64,000 nucleotides of DNA, taken from the NCBI GenBank assembly GCA_017744285.1, contig JAGIBP010000012.1, forward strand, positions 1 through 64,000, read 5' to 3'. A program made the translations under genes and the position numbers. The DNA is from Variovorax sp. GTDB taxonomy: Bacteria > Pseudomonadota > Gammaproteobacteria > Burkholderiales > Burkholderiaceae_C. Positions 2,899 through 16,097 of the stretch are shown here, piece by piece; position 1 is the stretch's first letter, and each line of letters begins with the position of its first letter. The notes beneath the pieces were generated by a model, which saw only the letters and a list, made by a program, of their open reading frames with translations, did not search any database and had not been told where the DNA came from.

Positions 2899-3582
2899 AT
2901 GGGCACCATGCCTGACAAGACCACGCGCCCGCGCGCCACGCTCCACTACATCTTCGACCCGCTGTGCGGCTGGTGTTATGCCGCGGCGCCGCTGGTGGGC
3001 GCGGCCCGCGCCATTCCCGGCCTGCAGGTGGAACTCCACGGCGGCGGGATGATGACCGGCACCAACCGCCGCACCATCACGCCCGAATGGCGCAGCCACG
3101 TGATTCCGCACGACCGCCGGATCGCCGAACTCAGCGGACAGCCCTTCGGCGCCGCCTACTTCGACGGGCTGCTCAACGATGGCGGTGCGGTGCTGGACTC
3201 CGCCCCGCCCCTGACCGCGATCCTGGCGGCGCAGGCGGTGGCGGACCGTGGTGTGGACATGCTCGACCGGGTACAGCGCGCCCACTACGTCGAAGGCCGC
3301 CGCATCGCCGAACCCGCCGTGCTGCACGAGCTCGCGCAGGACATCGGCCTGCCCGCCGCCGGTTTCGCCTCGGCCTTCCAGGAACTGGTGGGCGAATCGA
3401 CCTTCCGCCACATCGCCTTCAGCCGGCAATGGCTCGCCCGCGCGGACGGGCGGGGCTTTCCCACCTTCGCACTCGAAGCGCCCACCGCGCAGGTCACGCC
3501 GATCGATGCCGGCCGCTATCTCGGCCAGACCGCGGCATGGACCACGCAACTCGAACGGCTGATGGCCGAAGCGGGCCGCTAG
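2899..3582 (+). CDS. DsbA-like / FrnE-type thioredoxin-fold protein
   Basis: A 227-residue protein with a thioredoxin-fold CGWC motif near residue 26 (FDPLCGWCYAA) and no signal peptide, so it is probably cytoplasmic. This layout matches the DsbA/FrnE family of thiol-disulfide or dithiol-dependent isomerases, here with the cis-proline region FPTF near residue 190. ATG at 2899 follows GGAAACATACG, a usable ribosome site. It is the first gene of a pair with the NAD(P)-binding protein 36 bases downstream and is divergent from a LysR gene that probably regulates it. The substrate is unknown. Confidence 0.8.
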   Translation: MGTMPDKTTRPRATLHYIFDPLCGWCYAAAPLVGAARAIPGLQVELHGGGMMTGTNRRTITPEWRSHVIPHDRRIAELSGQPFGAAYFDGLLNDGGAVLDSAPPLTAILAAQAVADRGVDMLDRVQRAHYVEGRRIAEPAVLHELAQDIGLPAAGFASAFQELVGESTFRHIAFSRQWLARADGRGFPTFALEAPTAQVTPIDAGRYLGQTAAWTTQLERLMAEAGR

Positions 3583-3618
3583 ACCGCTTTTCCTTCAACT
3601 TCAGGACAGGACTTCATC

Positions 3619-4233
3619 ATGAACATCGCCCTCCTCGGCATCTCCGGCCGCGTCGGATCACGCATTGCCCACGAACTGCTCGCGCGCGGCCACGCGGTGA
3701 CCGGCATCGCACGCAAGATCGACGGCGTCGACGCGCGCGCCGGCCTCACGCTGAAGGCCGCGGACGCCCACTCGGCCGACGCGCTGGCGCCGCTGCTTCG
3801 CGGACACGACGCCGTCGTCAGCGCGATGCGCTTCGAGGGCGGAGCCGACGCCGCGACGCTGATCGCGGCAACGCGCGCGGCGGGTGTGCCGCGCCTGCTC
3901 GTCGTCGGCGGCGCCGGCAGCCTCGAGGTGGCGCCGGGCAGGGCCTTGCTCGACACCCCCGAGTTCCCGGAAGCCTACAAACCCGAAGCCCGGGCGGGCC
4001 AGGTGCTCCTGGAGGCCCTGCGGGCGGAAGAGAAGCTCGACTGGACCTTCCTGTCGCCCGCCGCGCTGTTCGTGCCGGGCGAACGCACCGGCACCTTCCG
4101 CACCGGCGGCGACGGCCTGCTCACCGACGCCAGCGGCAAGAGCTGGATCTCGATGGAGGACTACGCGATCGCGATGGCCAACGAAATCGAGGCGCCAAAG
4201 CACTCGCGCCAGCGCTTCACGGTCGGCTATTGA
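3619..4233 (+). CDS. NAD(P)-binding Rossmann oxidoreductase (NmrA/YwnB-like)
   Basis: A 204-residue single-domain protein beginning with a Rossmann nucleotide-binding loop, ALLGISGRVGSRI (residues 4-16). It keeps the VVGGAGSLEVAPG segment near residue 95 and the atypical-SDR C-terminus SWISMEDYAIAMANEIE. This matches the YwnB/NmrA-like group of small NAD(P)H-binding proteins that act as quinone or flavin reductases or redox sensors. A clear ribosome site (CAGGACAGGACTT) precedes the ATG. It follows the DsbA-like gene and may share its LysR control. Reaction not determined. Confidence 0.8.
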   Translation: MNIALLGISGRVGSRIAHELLARGHAVTGIARKIDGVDARAGLTLKAADAHSADALAPLLRGHDAVVSAMRFEGGADAATLIAATRAAGVPRLLVVGGAGSLEVAPGRALLDTPEFPEAYKPEARAGQVLLEALRAEEKLDWTFLSPAALFVPGERTGTFRTGGDGLLTDASGKSWISMEDYAIAMANEIEAPKHSRQRFTVGY

Positions 4234-4286
4234 AAGGAAGGGGGCGCAGGGGCGCGCGGCGTGCGGCCCCGGCCCCCGGCGGCGGC

Positions 4287-4991
4287 TCAGCGCGACACAC
4301 CGAGCAGGCGGTCCAGCACCTCGGGCTGCGTGCGCAGCGTCGCCGCATGGTCGGCATGCACCACCGTGCCATGGTCGAGCACCACCGCTTCGTCGGAGAT
4401 CGCGAGGATCGCCTGCGGGTGCTGCTCGACGATGATCGCCGCCAGCCCTTCGTCCCGCGTGATGCGGCGAATGGCGCGCAGCAGTTCTTCAACGATGATC
4501 GGCGCCAGCCCTTCCAGCGGCTCGTCCAGCAGCAGCAGCTTGGGGTTCACCACCAGCGCGCGGCCGACCGCGAGCATCTGCTGCTCGCCGCCCGAGAGCT
4601 GCGTGCCCAGGTTGCCCTTGCGCTCGGCCAGGCGCGGAAACATCTCGTAGACGCGCTCGGGCGTCCACTTGCCCGGCCGCGCGACCGCGGTCAGGTTCTC
4701 GTTCACCGTCAGCGACTTGAAGATGTTGCGCTCCTGCGGCACCCAGCCGATGCCGGCCGCGGCGCGCTGGTGCGAGGCCAGCGGGTTCAGCAGCACGCCG
4801 CCGAGCGAGATGCGGCCGCCGTGCTGTCGCGTCGCGCCCGCGAGCGTGTTCATCAGCGTGGTCTTGCCGGTGCCGTTGCGGCCCAGCAGCGCCAGCGTCT
4901 GGCCCTCGCCCAACGCGAGCGAAATGTCGTGCAGGACCACGGCCTCGCCGTAGCCCGCGCTCAGGTTCTCGATGCGCAACAGCTCAGACAT
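4287..4991 (-). CDS. livF: Branched-chain amino acid-type ABC transporter ATPase LivF (cluster 1)
   Basis: A 234-residue ATPase of the LivF subfamily, energising the LivH/LivM permease. Visible motifs are Walker A GRNGTGKTT (about 37-45), the signature LSGGEQQMLAVGRAL (about 130) and Walker B LLLLDEP (about 155). I chose the ATG at 4991, preceded by GGAGAAG; an in-frame ATG 12 bases upstream is also possible. It overlaps the 3' end of livG by 8 bases and is the last gene of the minus-strand liv operon. It ends in a GC-rich 53-base convergent gap with the oxidoreductase gene. Confidence 0.9.
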   Translation of the reverse strand: MSELLRIENLSAGYGEAVVLHDISLALGEGQTLALLGRNGTGKTTLMNTLAGATRQHGGRISLGGVLLNPLASHQRAAAGIGWVPQERNIFKSLTVNENLTAVARPGKWTPERVYEMFPRLAERKGNLGTQLSGGEQQMLAVGRALVVNPKLLLLDEPLEGLAPIIVEELLRAIRRITRDEGLAAIIVEQHPQAILAISDEAVVLDHGTVVHADHAATLRTQPEVLDRLLGVSR

Positions 4992-5766
4992 GCGCTTCTC
5001 CATGGCCCAGGTAGACCTCCTTCACCTTCGGGTCGTTCGCGATCGTGTCGGGGTCGCCCTCGGTCAGCAGCGTGCCGTTGACCAGCACGGTCATGCGATC
5101 GGCGAAGCTGAACACCAGGTCCATGTCGTGCTCGATCAGCAGCACGGACACATCGGCCGGCAGCGCGGCCACGGTCTCGAGCAGTTCCTCGCGTTCGCCC
5201 GCCGGCACGCCGGCCACGGGCTCGTCGAGCAGCAGCACGCGCGGCTCGCAAGCCAGCGCGATCGCGATCTCGAGCAGGCGGCGCTTGCCGTACGCCAGGT
5301 GCTTGGTCTGCTGGCCGGCAACGTCGGCGAGCCGGAACTGCTCCAGCAAGCGGCCCGCACGCTCGGTGACCTGCTTCGAGGCGCCCAGCGGACGCCACCA
5401 GTCCTTGCTGACGCCCAGGTGGTGCGAGACCACCAGCGCCAGCGTCTCCAGCGGCGTCATCGAATCGAACAGCTGGTTGATCTGGAAGGTGCGCACCATG
5501 CCGCGCGCCACCCGCTTGTGGGGCGCCAGGCGCGTGATGTCCTCGCCTTCGAGCACGATGCTGCCCTCGGTGGGCGTGAGCACGCCGGTCAGCAGGTTGA
5601 TCAGCGTGGTCTTGCCGGCGCCGTTCGGGCCGATCAGCGCGTGGCGCGCGCCGCGCCGCAGGTTCAGCGACACGTTGTTGGTCGCGGTGATGCCGCCGAA
5701 GCGCATCACCAGGCCGGTGGCCGAGAGGACGGTGTCGTTCACGTTGTTCTTGTTGTCATTGCTCAC
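4984..5766 (-). CDS. livG: Branched-chain amino acid-type ABC transporter ATPase LivG (cluster 1)
   Basis: A 260-residue ATPase with Walker A GPNGAGKTT (about 44-52), a signature-region LAYGKRRLLEIAIAL (about 155) and Walker B RVLLLDEPVAGVP (about 175). The LAYG signature and the EPVAG stretch are typical of LivG rather than LivF. The start is a GTG whose GTGA overlaps the livM stop by four bases, indicating translational coupling. The first 15 residues are asparagine-rich and precede the conserved domain. Together with LivF it should form the ATPase pair of an HAAT-family importer for amino acids, amides or related carboxylates. Confidence 0.9.
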   Translation of the reverse strand: MSNDNKNNVNDTVLSATGLVMRFGGITATNNVSLNLRRGARHALIGPNGAGKTTLINLLTGVLTPTEGSIVLEGEDITRLAPHKRVARGMVRTFQINQLFDSMTPLETLALVVSHHLGVSKDWWRPLGASKQVTERAGRLLEQFRLADVAGQQTKHLAYGKRRLLEIAIALACEPRVLLLDEPVAGVPAGEREELLETVAALPADVSVLLIEHDMDLVFSFADRMTVLVNGTLLTEGDPDTIANDPKVKEVYLGHGEAHV

Positions 5767-11881: not shown

Positions 11882-12571
11882 ATGGGAAACACCGTTCAGT
11901 TCAAGCGCCCCGACGGCGGCAGCGTCAATGGCTATCTGGCCCAAGCCGAGAAGGCATTCGGCTCGGTCGTGGTGATCCAGGAATGGTGGGGCCTCAATGA
12001 CCAGATCCGCGGCGTGGCGGACCGCTTCGCCAAGGCGGGCTTCACCGCGCTGGTGCCCGATCTGTACCGCGGCAAGTCCACCGTCGAGGCCGAGGAAGCG
12101 CATCACCTCATGAGCGGCCTGAACTTCGGCGACGCGGCCTCGCAGGACGTGCATGGCGCGGTGCAGTACCTGAAGGCCCGCGGCGGCAAGGTCGGCGTCA
12201 CCGGCTACTGCATGGGCGGCGCGCTGACCGTGCTGAGCCTCGCCGCCTCGCCCGAGGTGGATGCCGGCGTGGTCTGGTATGGCTACCCGCCGCTCGAATA
12301 CGTCGACGCCTCGAAGATCAAGGCACCGGTCATGGCGCATTGGGCGACGCAGGACCAGGCCTTCGCCATCGCCGGCGTCGATGCGCTCGAGGAAAAGCTG
12401 CGCGGCGCGGGCGTGCGCTACGAAGGCCACCGCTACCAGGCGCACCACGCATTCGCCAACGAAACGGCCCAGGGGCCGGGCCGGATTCCGATCACGCAGT
12501 ACGACGCCGTCTGGGCCCAGCTCGCCTGGGACCGCACGCTGCGTTTCTTTGGCAAGGAGCTGGCGGGCTGA
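11882..12571 (+). CDS. Dienelactone hydrolase family protein
   Basis: A 229-residue alpha/beta-hydrolase-fold protein. The family nucleophile Cys is in GYCMGGAL (about residue 111), the Asp in the region HWATQDQAF (about 159) and the His in YQAHHAFAN (about 190), giving the Cys-Asp-His triad of dienelactone hydrolases. These open lactones such as 4-carboxymethylenebut-2-en-4-olide in chlorocatechol breakdown, but many family members are general esterases. A CAGGAGAGCACC ribosome site precedes the ATG. No chlorocatechol pathway genes are nearby, so a housekeeping esterase role is as likely. Confidence 0.85.
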   Translation: MGNTVQFKRPDGGSVNGYLAQAEKAFGSVVVIQEWWGLNDQIRGVADRFAKAGFTALVPDLYRGKSTVEAEEAHHLMSGLNFGDAASQDVHGAVQYLKARGGKVGVTGYCMGGALTVLSLAASPEVDAGVVWYGYPPLEYVDASKIKAPVMAHWATQDQAFAIAGVDALEEKLRGAGVRYEGHRYQAHHAFANETAQGPGRIPITQYDAVWAQLAWDRTLRFFGKELAG

Positions 12572-12572
12572 T

Positions 12573-13652
12573 TCAGGCCGCCTTGTTGCGGTAGCTGGCG
12601 TTGCCGAGCCCCGTGCCGATGGTCAGCACCGCCCAGCGCTTGACATCGTGCATGAAGGGAAGCTCGCTCAGGCCCTGCACCACGGCGTCGTTGTGCATGA
12701 GCACCACGGTCGGCTCGCCGCCGATCGAGGGGATCCGCTTGCACAGCGTGCTCGGCAGGTGGAAGTTCTCGCTCTCCCAGTCGCCCGGCAGGTTCTGCGC
12801 ACCGCGCGCGATCGATCCGTCCTTGCGGATCAGCCCCGGGCAGCCGATGCCGATGAACGGCGCGAGGCGGATGCCCTTCCTGCCGCAGTAGTGCATCTGG
12901 TCCTCGATCATTTCCACCAGCCGGTCGACCAGCGCCTTGCGGCTGGGGCCGTCGTCGGCGTGGCGCCACTTCTCGCGGTGGAGCACCTTGGCTCGCGACA
13001 GGTCGCGCGCACGCCGCCAGCGCGTCTTGACGATGCCGCAGCGCACGTTGGTGCCGCCGATGTCCAGCGCGATGATCGCGTCGTGCCCCTTGAGCAGCGG
13101 CGGCGGCAGCAGATGCACCCATCCGAGCAGGCCGCCGTCGTCCGTCTCGTGGCAGATGCGCCCGAGCTGCACGCGCACGCCCATGTCCTCCAGCAAGGCC
13201 GTCGTCTGCAGGACGGCGCGCTCGCCGACGTCGCTCTCGGGGAAGCCGCCCCCGATCACGATGCGCTCCACGCCCTTCCATGAAGGGTGGCGCATGAAGC
13301 GCTCGATGACCCAGGCCAGCTCCTCCGCGAACTCCTCGATGACGCCGTGGATCACGTCGGCGGCCTCCGAAGCCTTGCGGCCGAGCGCTTCGTCGAGCAC
13401 GCGCTTCGACAGTTCCTTCGAATGCAGGCGCCCGAGCGGGTCCCGGCCCTTCTTGCGTCGCCGTCGGCGCCAGCGCTCCAGCAGTTCCCTGAAGGCGGTC
13501 TGGCTGGCCTGGTCGCCGACGAAGAAGCCGTCCTTGTCCCGCAACTGCAGGCTGTAGCCCTCGACCACCACCGAGGGCAGTTCGCGCGCGCCATGTTCGT
13601 CGGGCAGCACGTGCTCCTGCTCCTTGCGCTTGCGGTGTCCGTGCTTCGCCAT
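12573..13652 (-). CDS. ROK/ASKHA-type kinase-like protein with circularly permuted motif order
   Basis: A 359-residue protein. Its second half carries the N-terminal motifs of ROK sugar kinases: phosphate-1 loop ALDIGGTNVRCG (195-206), GIGCPGLI (268-275), LMHNDAVVQGLSE with the expected catalytic Asp322, and phosphate-2 TIGTGLGN (344-351), after which the protein ends. The parts normally found after phosphate-2 lie in the first half: helices about 80-120, the adenosine-side motif VERIVIGGG (128-136) and ETDDGGLLGWVHLL (169-182), which ends ordinary ROK proteins. The ROK zinc motif is absent. The N-terminus and residues 61-70 are strongly basic. ATG 13652 has GAGGAA upstream. It follows an alpha/beta hydrolase gene by 13 bases. 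Sugar or other acceptor unknown. Confidence 0.72.
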   Translation of the reverse strand: MAKHGHRKRKEQEHVLPDEHGARELPSVVVEGYSLQLRDKDGFFVGDQASQTAFRELLERWRRRRRKKGRDPLGRLHSKELSKRVLDEALGRKASEAADVIHGVIEEFAEELAWVIERFMRHPSWKGVERIVIGGGFPESDVGERAVLQTTALLEDMGVRVQLGRICHETDDGGLLGWVHLLPPPLLKGHDAIIALDIGGTNVRCGIVKTRWRRARDLSRAKVLHREKWRHADDGPSRKALVDRLVEMIEDQMHYCGRKGIRLAPFIGIGCPGLIRKDGSIARGAQNLPGDWESENFHLPSTLCKRIPSIGGEPTVVLMHNDAVVQGLSELPFMHDVKRWAVLTIGTGLGNASYRNKAA

Positions 13653-14463: not shown

Positions 14464-14564
14464 TCTCCATTCATCCCGGCGCGCTTCGCATCGGTCCGGC
14501 GGACGAACCCGTGTAGGAGAACGCCGCTGTGGCCGCGCACGCACGGCCGATACACTGCAGCGCG

Positions 14565-16097
14565 ATGCACCCCCTGCGCCGGCTCTGGCTCGCCGCCCTG
14601 ACCTGCCTGGGCCTCCTTGCGGGGTCCGCGCCGGCGCCTGCGCAGCAGCAGGAAAGCCCGCGCATCGGCTCCAAGCGCTTCACCGAGTCCTACATCCTGG
14701 CCGAGGTGCTGGCGCAGACCGCCGCCCCCCACACCCCCTCCCCGCCCGTGGTGCGGCAGGGCCTGGGGAACACCGCCATCGTCTACGAAGCCTTGCGCTC
14801 CGGCGGCATCGACCTCTATGCCGAATACACCGGCACCGTCGCGCAGGAGATCCTCAAGCGGCCCGGATCGACGACGCTCCAGGAGATCGACGCCGGCCTT
14901 CGGCCGCTCGGCCTGGGCGCGGCGATCCCGCTGGGCTTCAATGACGGCTATGCGCTCGCCATGCGGGCCGCCGATGCCGACCGGCTCGGGGTGCGCAGCC
15001 TGAGCGATCTCGCGCTGCACCCGGAATTGAAGCTCGGCCTGTCGAACGAGTTCATCGGCCGCGCCGACGGATGGCGCGGGCTGGCCGAGCGCTACGGTTT
15101 GCGGCAGGCGCCGACCGGGCTCGACCATGGGCTCGCCTACGACGCGATCGCCGCGAAGCAGATCGACGTGATGGACATCTACACCACCGACGCCAAGATC
15201 GATCACCTGGGCCTGCGCGTGCTGGAGGACGACCGCCGCTATTTCCCCCGCTACGACGCGGTGGTGCTCTACCGCCTGGACGTGCCCGCGCGCTGGCCGG
15301 CCGCGTGGGCGGCGCTGCGCCGTCTCGAAGGCCGCATCGACGAGCGCGCCATGATCGCGATGAATGCGCGCGCCGAGCTGCAGAGCGTGCCCTTCGAGGT
15401 CATCGCACGCGACTTCCTCGCGCAGGCAGGAACGGGCCAGGGCGCACCGACGGGTGCCGGCGAGTCCGCGGGCCGGGGCTTCATGGCCAAGCTGTTCGGG
15501 CCGGACCTCGGCCGGCTCGCGCGCCAGCACCTGCTGCTGGTCGCGGTCTCGGTCGGGCTCGCCATCCTGGTCGCGGTGCCGCTGGGCATCCTCGTGTTCC
15601 CGCACCTGCGCGCCCGCGCGGTGGTGCTCGGGCTCACGGGGCTCTTGCAGACCGTGCCGTCGATCGCGCTGCTGGCGATCCTGATCTCGCTGGTCGGCGT
15701 GATCGGCACCGTGCCCGCGCTGATCGCGCTCACGCTGTACTCGCTGCTGCCGATCATGCGCAACACCGTCACGGGCCTGGCCGAAGTGCCGACCGGCCTG
15801 CGCCTGGCCGGTACCGCGCTGGGCATGACCTCGGCGCAGAGCCTTCGCGTGGTGCAACTGCCGCTCGCGCTGCCCACGATCCTCGCGGGCGTTCGCACGG
15901 CGACCACCATCGCCATCGGCACCGCGACCATCGCCGCCTTCATCGGCGCCGGCGGCTTCGGGGAGCGCATCGTCACCGGACTCGCACTCAACGACCGCCA
16001 ATTGCTCGCCGCCGGCGCCCTGCCGGCCGCCGCGCTGGCGCTGCTGAGCGAGGCGCTGTTCGAAATCGTCGAGTACTTCACGCGACGGCCGCGCTGA
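14565..16097 (+). CDS. Fused glycine betaine/choline-type substrate-binding protein and ABC permease
   Basis: A 510-residue protein. A signal sequence (about 1-24) is followed by an OpuAC/OsmF-like binding domain (about 30-290; RIGSKRFTESYILAEVL, DLYAEYTGT, AKQIDVMDIYTTDA). A permease domain with about five helices (315-500) follows, carrying the ABC coupling loop LAGTALGMTSAQSLRVVQLP and ending in AAFIGAGGFGERIVTG. In the well-known OpuABC and ProWX fusions the permease comes first, so the order here is reversed. The family imports quaternary amines for osmoprotection or as nutrients. No matching ATPase gene is adjacent; the next gene is a hypothetical, so the ATPase must be elsewhere or borrowed. 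Confidence 0.85.
   Translation: MHPLRRLWLAALTCLGLLAGSAPAPAQQQESPRIGSKRFTESYILAEVLAQTAAPHTPSPPVVRQGLGNTAIVYEALRSGGIDLYAEYTGTVAQEILKRPGSTTLQEIDAGLRPLGLGAAIPLGFNDGYALAMRAADADRLGVRSLSDLALHPELKLGLSNEFIGRADGWRGLAERYGLRQAPTGLDHGLAYDAIAAKQIDVMDIYTTDAKIDHLGLRVLEDDRRYFPRYDAVVLYRLDVPARWPAAWAALRRLEGRIDERAMIAMNARAELQSVPFEVIARDFLAQAGTGQGAPTGAGESAGRGFMAKLFGPDLGRLARQHLLLVAVSVGLAILVAVPLGILVFPHLRARAVVLGLTGLLQTVPSIALLAILISLVGVIGTVPALIALTLYSLLPIMRNTVTGLAEVPTGLRLAGTALGMTSAQSLRVVQLPLALPTILAGVRTATTIAIGTATIAAFIGAGGFGERIVTGLALNDRQLLAAGALPAAALALLSEALFEIVEYFTRRPR

Follow-up and report, generated by a model that had tools for sequence, protein, structure and literature searches.

Has a ROK family kinase been circularly permuted in nature? 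The question is raised by a gene in a 64,000-nucleotide stretch of Variovorax sp. DNA (assembly GCA_017744285.1, contig JAGIBP010000012.1, positions 1 to 64,000; hereafter the window), in which the motifs that normally end a ROK kinase precede those that normally begin one. The gene is an open reading frame (ORF) of 359 codons on the minus strand (12576..13652, with the stop codon at 12573-12575), and its product scored above the Pfam cut-off for ROK. The start at 13652 is backed by two close relatives (L002 and L003), with the open frame beginning 7 codons upstream. The initial annotation had read this gene as a circularly permuted ROK protein, and our analysis supported that reading. We conclude that the product is very probably a naturally circularly permuted kinase of the ROK lineage, with an ASKHA fold and an altered sugar side.

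All motifs were found at the residues where they had first been placed, and their conservation was assessed in an alignment of the window protein and 41 relatives (42 sequences). These were 41 of 53 relative stretches, the other 12 being close Variovorax and Pseudacidovorax copies that were excluded; the window's own copy (L001) and two further stretches, L012 and L036, had already been set aside. The adenosine-side GGG motif, VERIVIGGGF, occupies residues 128-137 (13242..13271), and the D..GL.GA helix typical of the ROK C terminus, ETDDGGLLGWVHLL, occupies residues 169-182 (13107..13148). Both are followed by phosphate-1 (DIGGTNVRCG, residues 197-206, 13035..13064), the catalytic Asp motif HND (residues 320-322, 12687..12695) and phosphate-2 (TIGTGLGN, residues 344-351, 12600..12623), shortly past which the stop codon ends the chain, as had also been noted. 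Invariant in all 42 sequences were G134-G136, D171, G174, L175 and G177, the phosphate-1 residues D197, G199, G200, N202 and R204, the complete HND, and the phosphate-2 residues T344, G346-G348, G350 and N351.

The Pfam ROK model matched residues 194-356 with its positions 2-141 of 294 (27.4 bits against a cut-off of 22.9), so that the C-terminal end of this protein corresponds to the N-terminal part of ROK. The two halves were then compared separately with the family by profile-profile alignment (hhalign), using the 42-sequence alignment and 35 of 36 ordinary ROKs from the same order and phylum (L066 was dropped by choice beforehand). The C-terminal half (residues 186-359) aligned with ROK positions 4-147 (P 3.9e-15) and the N-terminal half (residues 17-188) with positions 205-304 (P 1.5e-8). 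Thus each half matched the opposite end of the family, the outcome expected from the initial annotation, and the GGG motif was found at the adenosine-side position. The likeness of both halves exceeds chance, since 60 column shuffles per half gave P values no lower than 0.0023 for the C-terminal and 0.021 for the N-terminal half. Within the N-terminal half, residues 92-188 aligned with ROK 217-304 (P 1.6e-8), and residues 17-92 alone showed no likeness to the ROK profile (P 0.44).

When a single ROK copy was used, the full profile aligned over residues 190-354 only. Two copies in tandem gave an unbroken alignment over residues 80-354, running from ROK position 205 through the copy boundary to position 452 (P 1e-20); an earlier comparison with 21 ROKs, most of them fructokinase-like, led to the same result (6.9e-14). 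A hidden Markov model (HMM) search of six-frame ORFs extended this result to 70 loci. In every locus, the C-terminal end of the ORF matched the start of the ROK model (about 5-150), and in 27 loci this match was preceded by model positions of about 200-302 (independent E-value < 0.05); in the other 43, the window's own ORF among them, only the first part of ROK scored. The order was inverted in 27 of the 27 loci in which both parts scored, and the ordinary N-to-C order was seen in 0 of 70. In two relatives the Pfam model also reached into the N-terminal half, from near the equivalent of G46-D47: residues 29-163 of L056 matched model positions 179-292, and residues 29-167 of L035 matched 177-293. 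These comparisons confirmed that the permuted order of the ROK halves is real.

The re-ordered alignment allowed the protein to be divided along its length. Residues 1-18 (13599..13652) form a basic tail that varies among relatives, with a predicted local distance difference test (pLDDT) score below 50 for residues 1-16. Residues 19-92 (13377..13598) lie opposite the ROK stretch of ExGH, zinc loop, GCxE and helix; H20, G46-D47, R62 and K83 are invariant in this part, and the zinc motif is absent from it. Residues 93-183 (13104..13376) correspond to the C-terminal part of ROK, with the long helix, the GGG strand and the DxxGLxG helix. The former C terminus is joined to the former N terminus by about eight residues, PPPLLKGH (residues 183-190, 13083..13106), and the doubled-ROK alignment continues across this bridge. 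Residues 191-359 (12576..13082) are the former N-terminal part, now C-terminal.

The opening point lies past the phosphate-2 hairpin and ahead of the ROK ExGH region. The proposed cut after phosphate-2 therefore stood as to region, although not directly after the motif, because the phosphate-2 strand is predicted to continue to residue 356. Region 1-80 had been called basic and new; residues 1-18 form the basic, variable tail, and residues 19-80 need not be new, since they face the ROK stretch from ExGH to past GCxE and since the Pfam matches of L056 and L035 extend into this part.

In fold comparisons of the predicted models, both halves matched ASKHA proteins and the termini were new, in agreement with the structural expectation set out at first. 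For the N-terminal half, the 50 matches listed in the VIA-align comparison were ASKHA kinases and ROK repressors. The models agree with the arrangement by which the ASKHA superfamily is recognized, two RNase H-like domains predicted to close on the nucleotide.

Phosphate-1, phosphate-2, the GGG strand and the catalytic Asp were retained in 42 of 42 sequences; N287 and W292 were also invariant. The patterns E.GH, C.CG and GC.E occurred in 0 of the 42 aligned sequences, which agrees with the zinc motif having been reported as absent. ExGH and the zinc motif are also missing from some accepted ROKs. In the re-ordered alignment, the position of ExGH has H20-G21 close by, and the invariant G46-D47 takes the position of the ROK GC[IL]E motif.

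The roles of individual residues in ROK motifs are known from the family literature, and by analogy we propose how the permuted protein would have arisen and would work. An ancestral ROK kinase chain would have been cut between its phosphate-2 hairpin and its ExGH region, with its old C terminus (GLLGWVHLL) linked via PPPLLKGH to the old N terminus (DIGGTN); on folding, the permuted chain would restore the two-domain clamp. Phosphate-1 (D197-G206), phosphate-2 (T344-N351) and the GGG strand (134-136) would hold ATP, and D322 would act as the general base, activating a sugar-like hydroxyl. The sugar side would be altered: N287, N321 and D322 are kept, D47 would replace the Glu of GCxE, H20-G21 would stand close to the ExGH position, and the zinc loop is absent. 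We infer an active kinase, probably acting on a sugar or a similar polyol.

The main rival explanation is that the permuted ROK fold has become a sugar- or nucleotide-sensing protein and is no longer a kinase, which we consider improbable. It would account for the loss of ExGH and the zinc motif in all 42 sequences, for the basic N-terminal tail, and for gene neighbours that vary by genus and indicate no substrate pathway. Sensors tend to lose catalytic and ATP-binding residues, whereas the HND, phosphate-1 and phosphate-2 residues are invariant here. The ROK family does include repressors, according to the part of PMC12696579 that was available, but no helix-turn-helix family was found among the domain matches of the window protein. 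The reading as a working kinase is favoured because the residues of the ATP side and of catalysis do not vary among sequences with about 50% identity, and because the gene is close to fixation in one genus.

Far less probable is a half ROK domain fused to an unrelated N-terminal domain, with the likeness of VERIVIGGG to a ROK motif due to chance. Pfam scored only residues 194-356, the N-terminal half of the window protein alone had no Pfam match, residues 17-92 lack profile likeness to ROK, and the N-terminal halves of some members weakly match the baeRF_family10 model instead. This explanation was rejected on the N-half profile, HMM and fold matches: the profile P value of 1.5e-8 compares with 0.021 for the best shuffle, the N-terminal halves of other members match ROK 177-293 or 191-292, and the matches listed for the N-half model are ASKHA kinases and ROK repressors. 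Moreover, half an ASKHA domain alone would leave the ATP site open. The baeRF_family10 model matched the N-terminal halves of 6 of the 42 members at E<=1. In L035 (1081-1593), residues 37-84 matched it with an E-value of 8.8e-6, just under the cut-off and better than the match to ROK. This best stretch covers 48 residues, and those of four other members 36-81; in our judgement the matches probably reflect a shared helix/strand pattern. A match to the NCBIfam model XopAF, with 15.6 bits (cut-off 200) and an E-value of 0.012, was judged to be due to chance.

The weakest alternative, a misassembled contig or a tandem pair with a frameshift, has next to no likelihood: although the window's genome is a draft assembly (107 contigs, 69% complete), the same order was seen in 41 further aligned relatives that are open over their full length, relatives are present in 58 of the 61 genomes searched in the genus and in complete plasmid records such as pSymB of Sinorhizobium meliloti 1021, and the 70 loci contain no second ROK fragment except an ORF in L130 and a remnant of the permuted gene in L109.

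Among known proteins, the ROK kinases (PF00480; NagK, NanK and the kinase domain of human GNE, ROK glucokinase and fructokinase) share with the permuted protein the ASKHA fold, phosphate-1, phosphate-2, the catalytic Asp in an ND motif, the GGG strand and the D..GL.G C-terminal helix. The permuted protein differs from them in its swapped halves and new termini and in the lack of CxCGxxGC and ExGH; after computational re-ordering its identity to the 36 ordinary ROKs was at most about 25%. The polyphosphate/ATP glucomannokinase (1woq) has the ordinary order, unlike the permuted protein; L097, noted beside this enzyme, retains ELGH in the re-ordered alignment. Eukaryotic hexokinases, including the tandem hexokinases I and II, were the top Foldseek matches. 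The VIA-align range of 1dgk (291-701) suggests that they may rank first because the C-terminal part of copy 1 followed by the N-terminal part of copy 2 in a tandem equals the permuted order. PF00349 matched 17 of the 42 members at E<=0.01. Hexokinases I and II are tandem rather than permuted, and more than twice as long as the permuted protein.

Relatives were sought by likeness to the window protein, and the genome samples covered Pseudomonadota only, so that other permuted lineages could have been missed. The initial annotation had proposed a look at other Comamonadaceae; full-length relatives with the same order were found there and beyond. They were present in 58 of 61 genomes of the window's genus, 24 of 299 genomes of its family, 2 of 321 of its class, 22 of 398 in the phylum sample (with 24 matches) and 12 of 289 of the class of genome G035; the genus, family, phylum and class counts include the window's own genome. 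Another 18 genomes of the phylum sample gave half matches (E >1e-5), and the eight examined were ordinary ROKs. Relatives of about 50% identity are patchy in Alphaproteobacteria, among them the copy at 477074-478129 of S. meliloti 1021 pSymB. Matches were found in 206 plasmid records, 196 of which covered at least 80% of the query; the records came chiefly from Rhizobium (111) and Sinorhizobium (79). No phage record among 50,697 matched the protein at E 1e-3.

In a midpoint-rooted tree, the re-ordered family formed one clade on a long branch (support 0.78), apart from the 36 ordinary ROKs, the nearest of which is about 25% identical to the window protein. A single clade is as expected of one old permutation event. 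ROK matches also occur elsewhere in the window's genome, on three contigs (C78, C96 and C46), two of these matches spanning nearly the whole model; the permuted gene is thus an extra and not a replacement. No intermediate of the permutation, such as a nearby tandem ROK or a leftover fragment, was recognized in the flanks of the 70 loci. The L130 ORF, on the minus strand, matched only ROK positions 7-56 (E 9.6e-5). It overlies a region annotated as glycosyl hydrolase/hydantoinase-side and, by position, lies on or near the hydantoinase/oxoprolinase gene (locus 3322-5397), which we take to be an ASKHA-type name; it was therefore not counted as a ROK remnant. In L109, a minus-strand ORF of 96 residues (12157-12444), about 3.5 kb from the intact gene, resembles the permuted N-terminal part over about 73 residues and is perhaps a decayed duplicate of the permuted gene.

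In the window, an alpha/beta hydrolase gene on the same strand ends 13 bases upstream of the permuted gene, and a dienelactone hydrolase gene is convergent with it. At a greater distance, at 14529-16097 on the plus strand, a gene for an osmoprotectant-type ATP-binding cassette transporter encodes a fusion of a glycine betaine-type substrate-binding protein with a permease (OpuAC and BPD_transp_1). A comparison of 35 regions showed that neighbouring genes are common within genera and hardly shared across them, so that no pathway indicates the substrate. A divergent otsB gene (trehalose-phosphatase) adjoins the permuted gene in three of five annotated plasmid loci but not in the other two. The three are two Shinella plasmids (L120 and L131) and a plasmid recorded as Roseateles sp. 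XES5 (L132, UNVERIFIED_ORG), whose label may be wrong.

Of 34 relatives outside the beta group, 16 carry a correctly oriented GGAAC-N16/17-[CG][GAC]TT motif upstream of the permuted gene, and 10 carry its strict CGTT form; the expected numbers are 0.87 and 0.36, from a background that was taken from the same loci and includes the sites themselves, and among sister species that are not independent. A looser pattern was examined first and then narrowed to this one. The counts exclude identical upstream regions, stretches with fewer than 260 bases of upstream sequence, and partial matches; the group of 34 includes L132, labelled Roseateles, and L055, from the window's own class. In the beta group, 1 of 38 relatives had the broader form and 0 of 38 the strict one; the motif was found in 0 of 11 relatives in genus g109, and no such motif lies upstream of the window's own gene. 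We take the motif to be of the EcfG/RpoE2 type, whose consensus resembles GGAAC-N16/17-CGTT. In 14 of the 16 relatives that bear it, it precedes the H20 codon by about 98-134 bases. The strict form is present in S. meliloti 1021, S. medicae and Phyllobacterium. Carriers include L118 (S. meliloti pSymB), L119, L120, L122, L125, L130, L131 and L132.

Judged by the motif only, the gene may in many alphaproteobacteria serve the general stress response under an EcfG sigma factor. Ku/LigD, otsB and an NAGGN peptidase are neighbours in some of the motif-bearing replicons, which fits a stress role anecdotally. These observations do not apply to the copy in the window. For comparison, 346 RpoE2 promoters are predicted in PMC3616915, in the part of that text that was available. 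That the family consists of active natural ASKHA permutants, with a general-stress kinase in Alphaproteobacteria acting through a rebuilt ExGH/GCxE side and with no zinc on a substrate that ordinary ROKs would refuse, is a reading that we put forward tentatively, as somewhat short of probable.

In accordance with the initial annotation, which knew of no described permuted ROK, we found no ROK or ASKHA kinase described as permuted among the matches listed in searches of the open full-text literature, the scope of which leaves out subscription papers and preprints. In the parts available, PMC1079889 refers to circular permutation solely as a general criterion in defining fold groups, and PMC12696579 contains no word beginning with "permut". 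Database entries named "ROK family protein" (such as WP_262291255.1 and WP_064334556.1) are full-length relatives with the same order, under a name that is silent on the permutation; some other relatives are named "hypothetical protein", and many plasmid matches have no annotated feature.

The family looks like a conserved natural rearrangement of a classic kinase fold in many Variovorax and rhizobial genomes. A natural circular permutation is surprising in a two-domain kinase that relies on domain closure. It alters the free chain ends and the hinge connections, and the family thereby provides a natural test of the role of chain order in ASKHA folding and clamp motion. Naming based on a half domain, as "ROK family protein", conceals a conserved family in models such as S. 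meliloti, where the possible link of the permuted gene to general stress could be tested at once.
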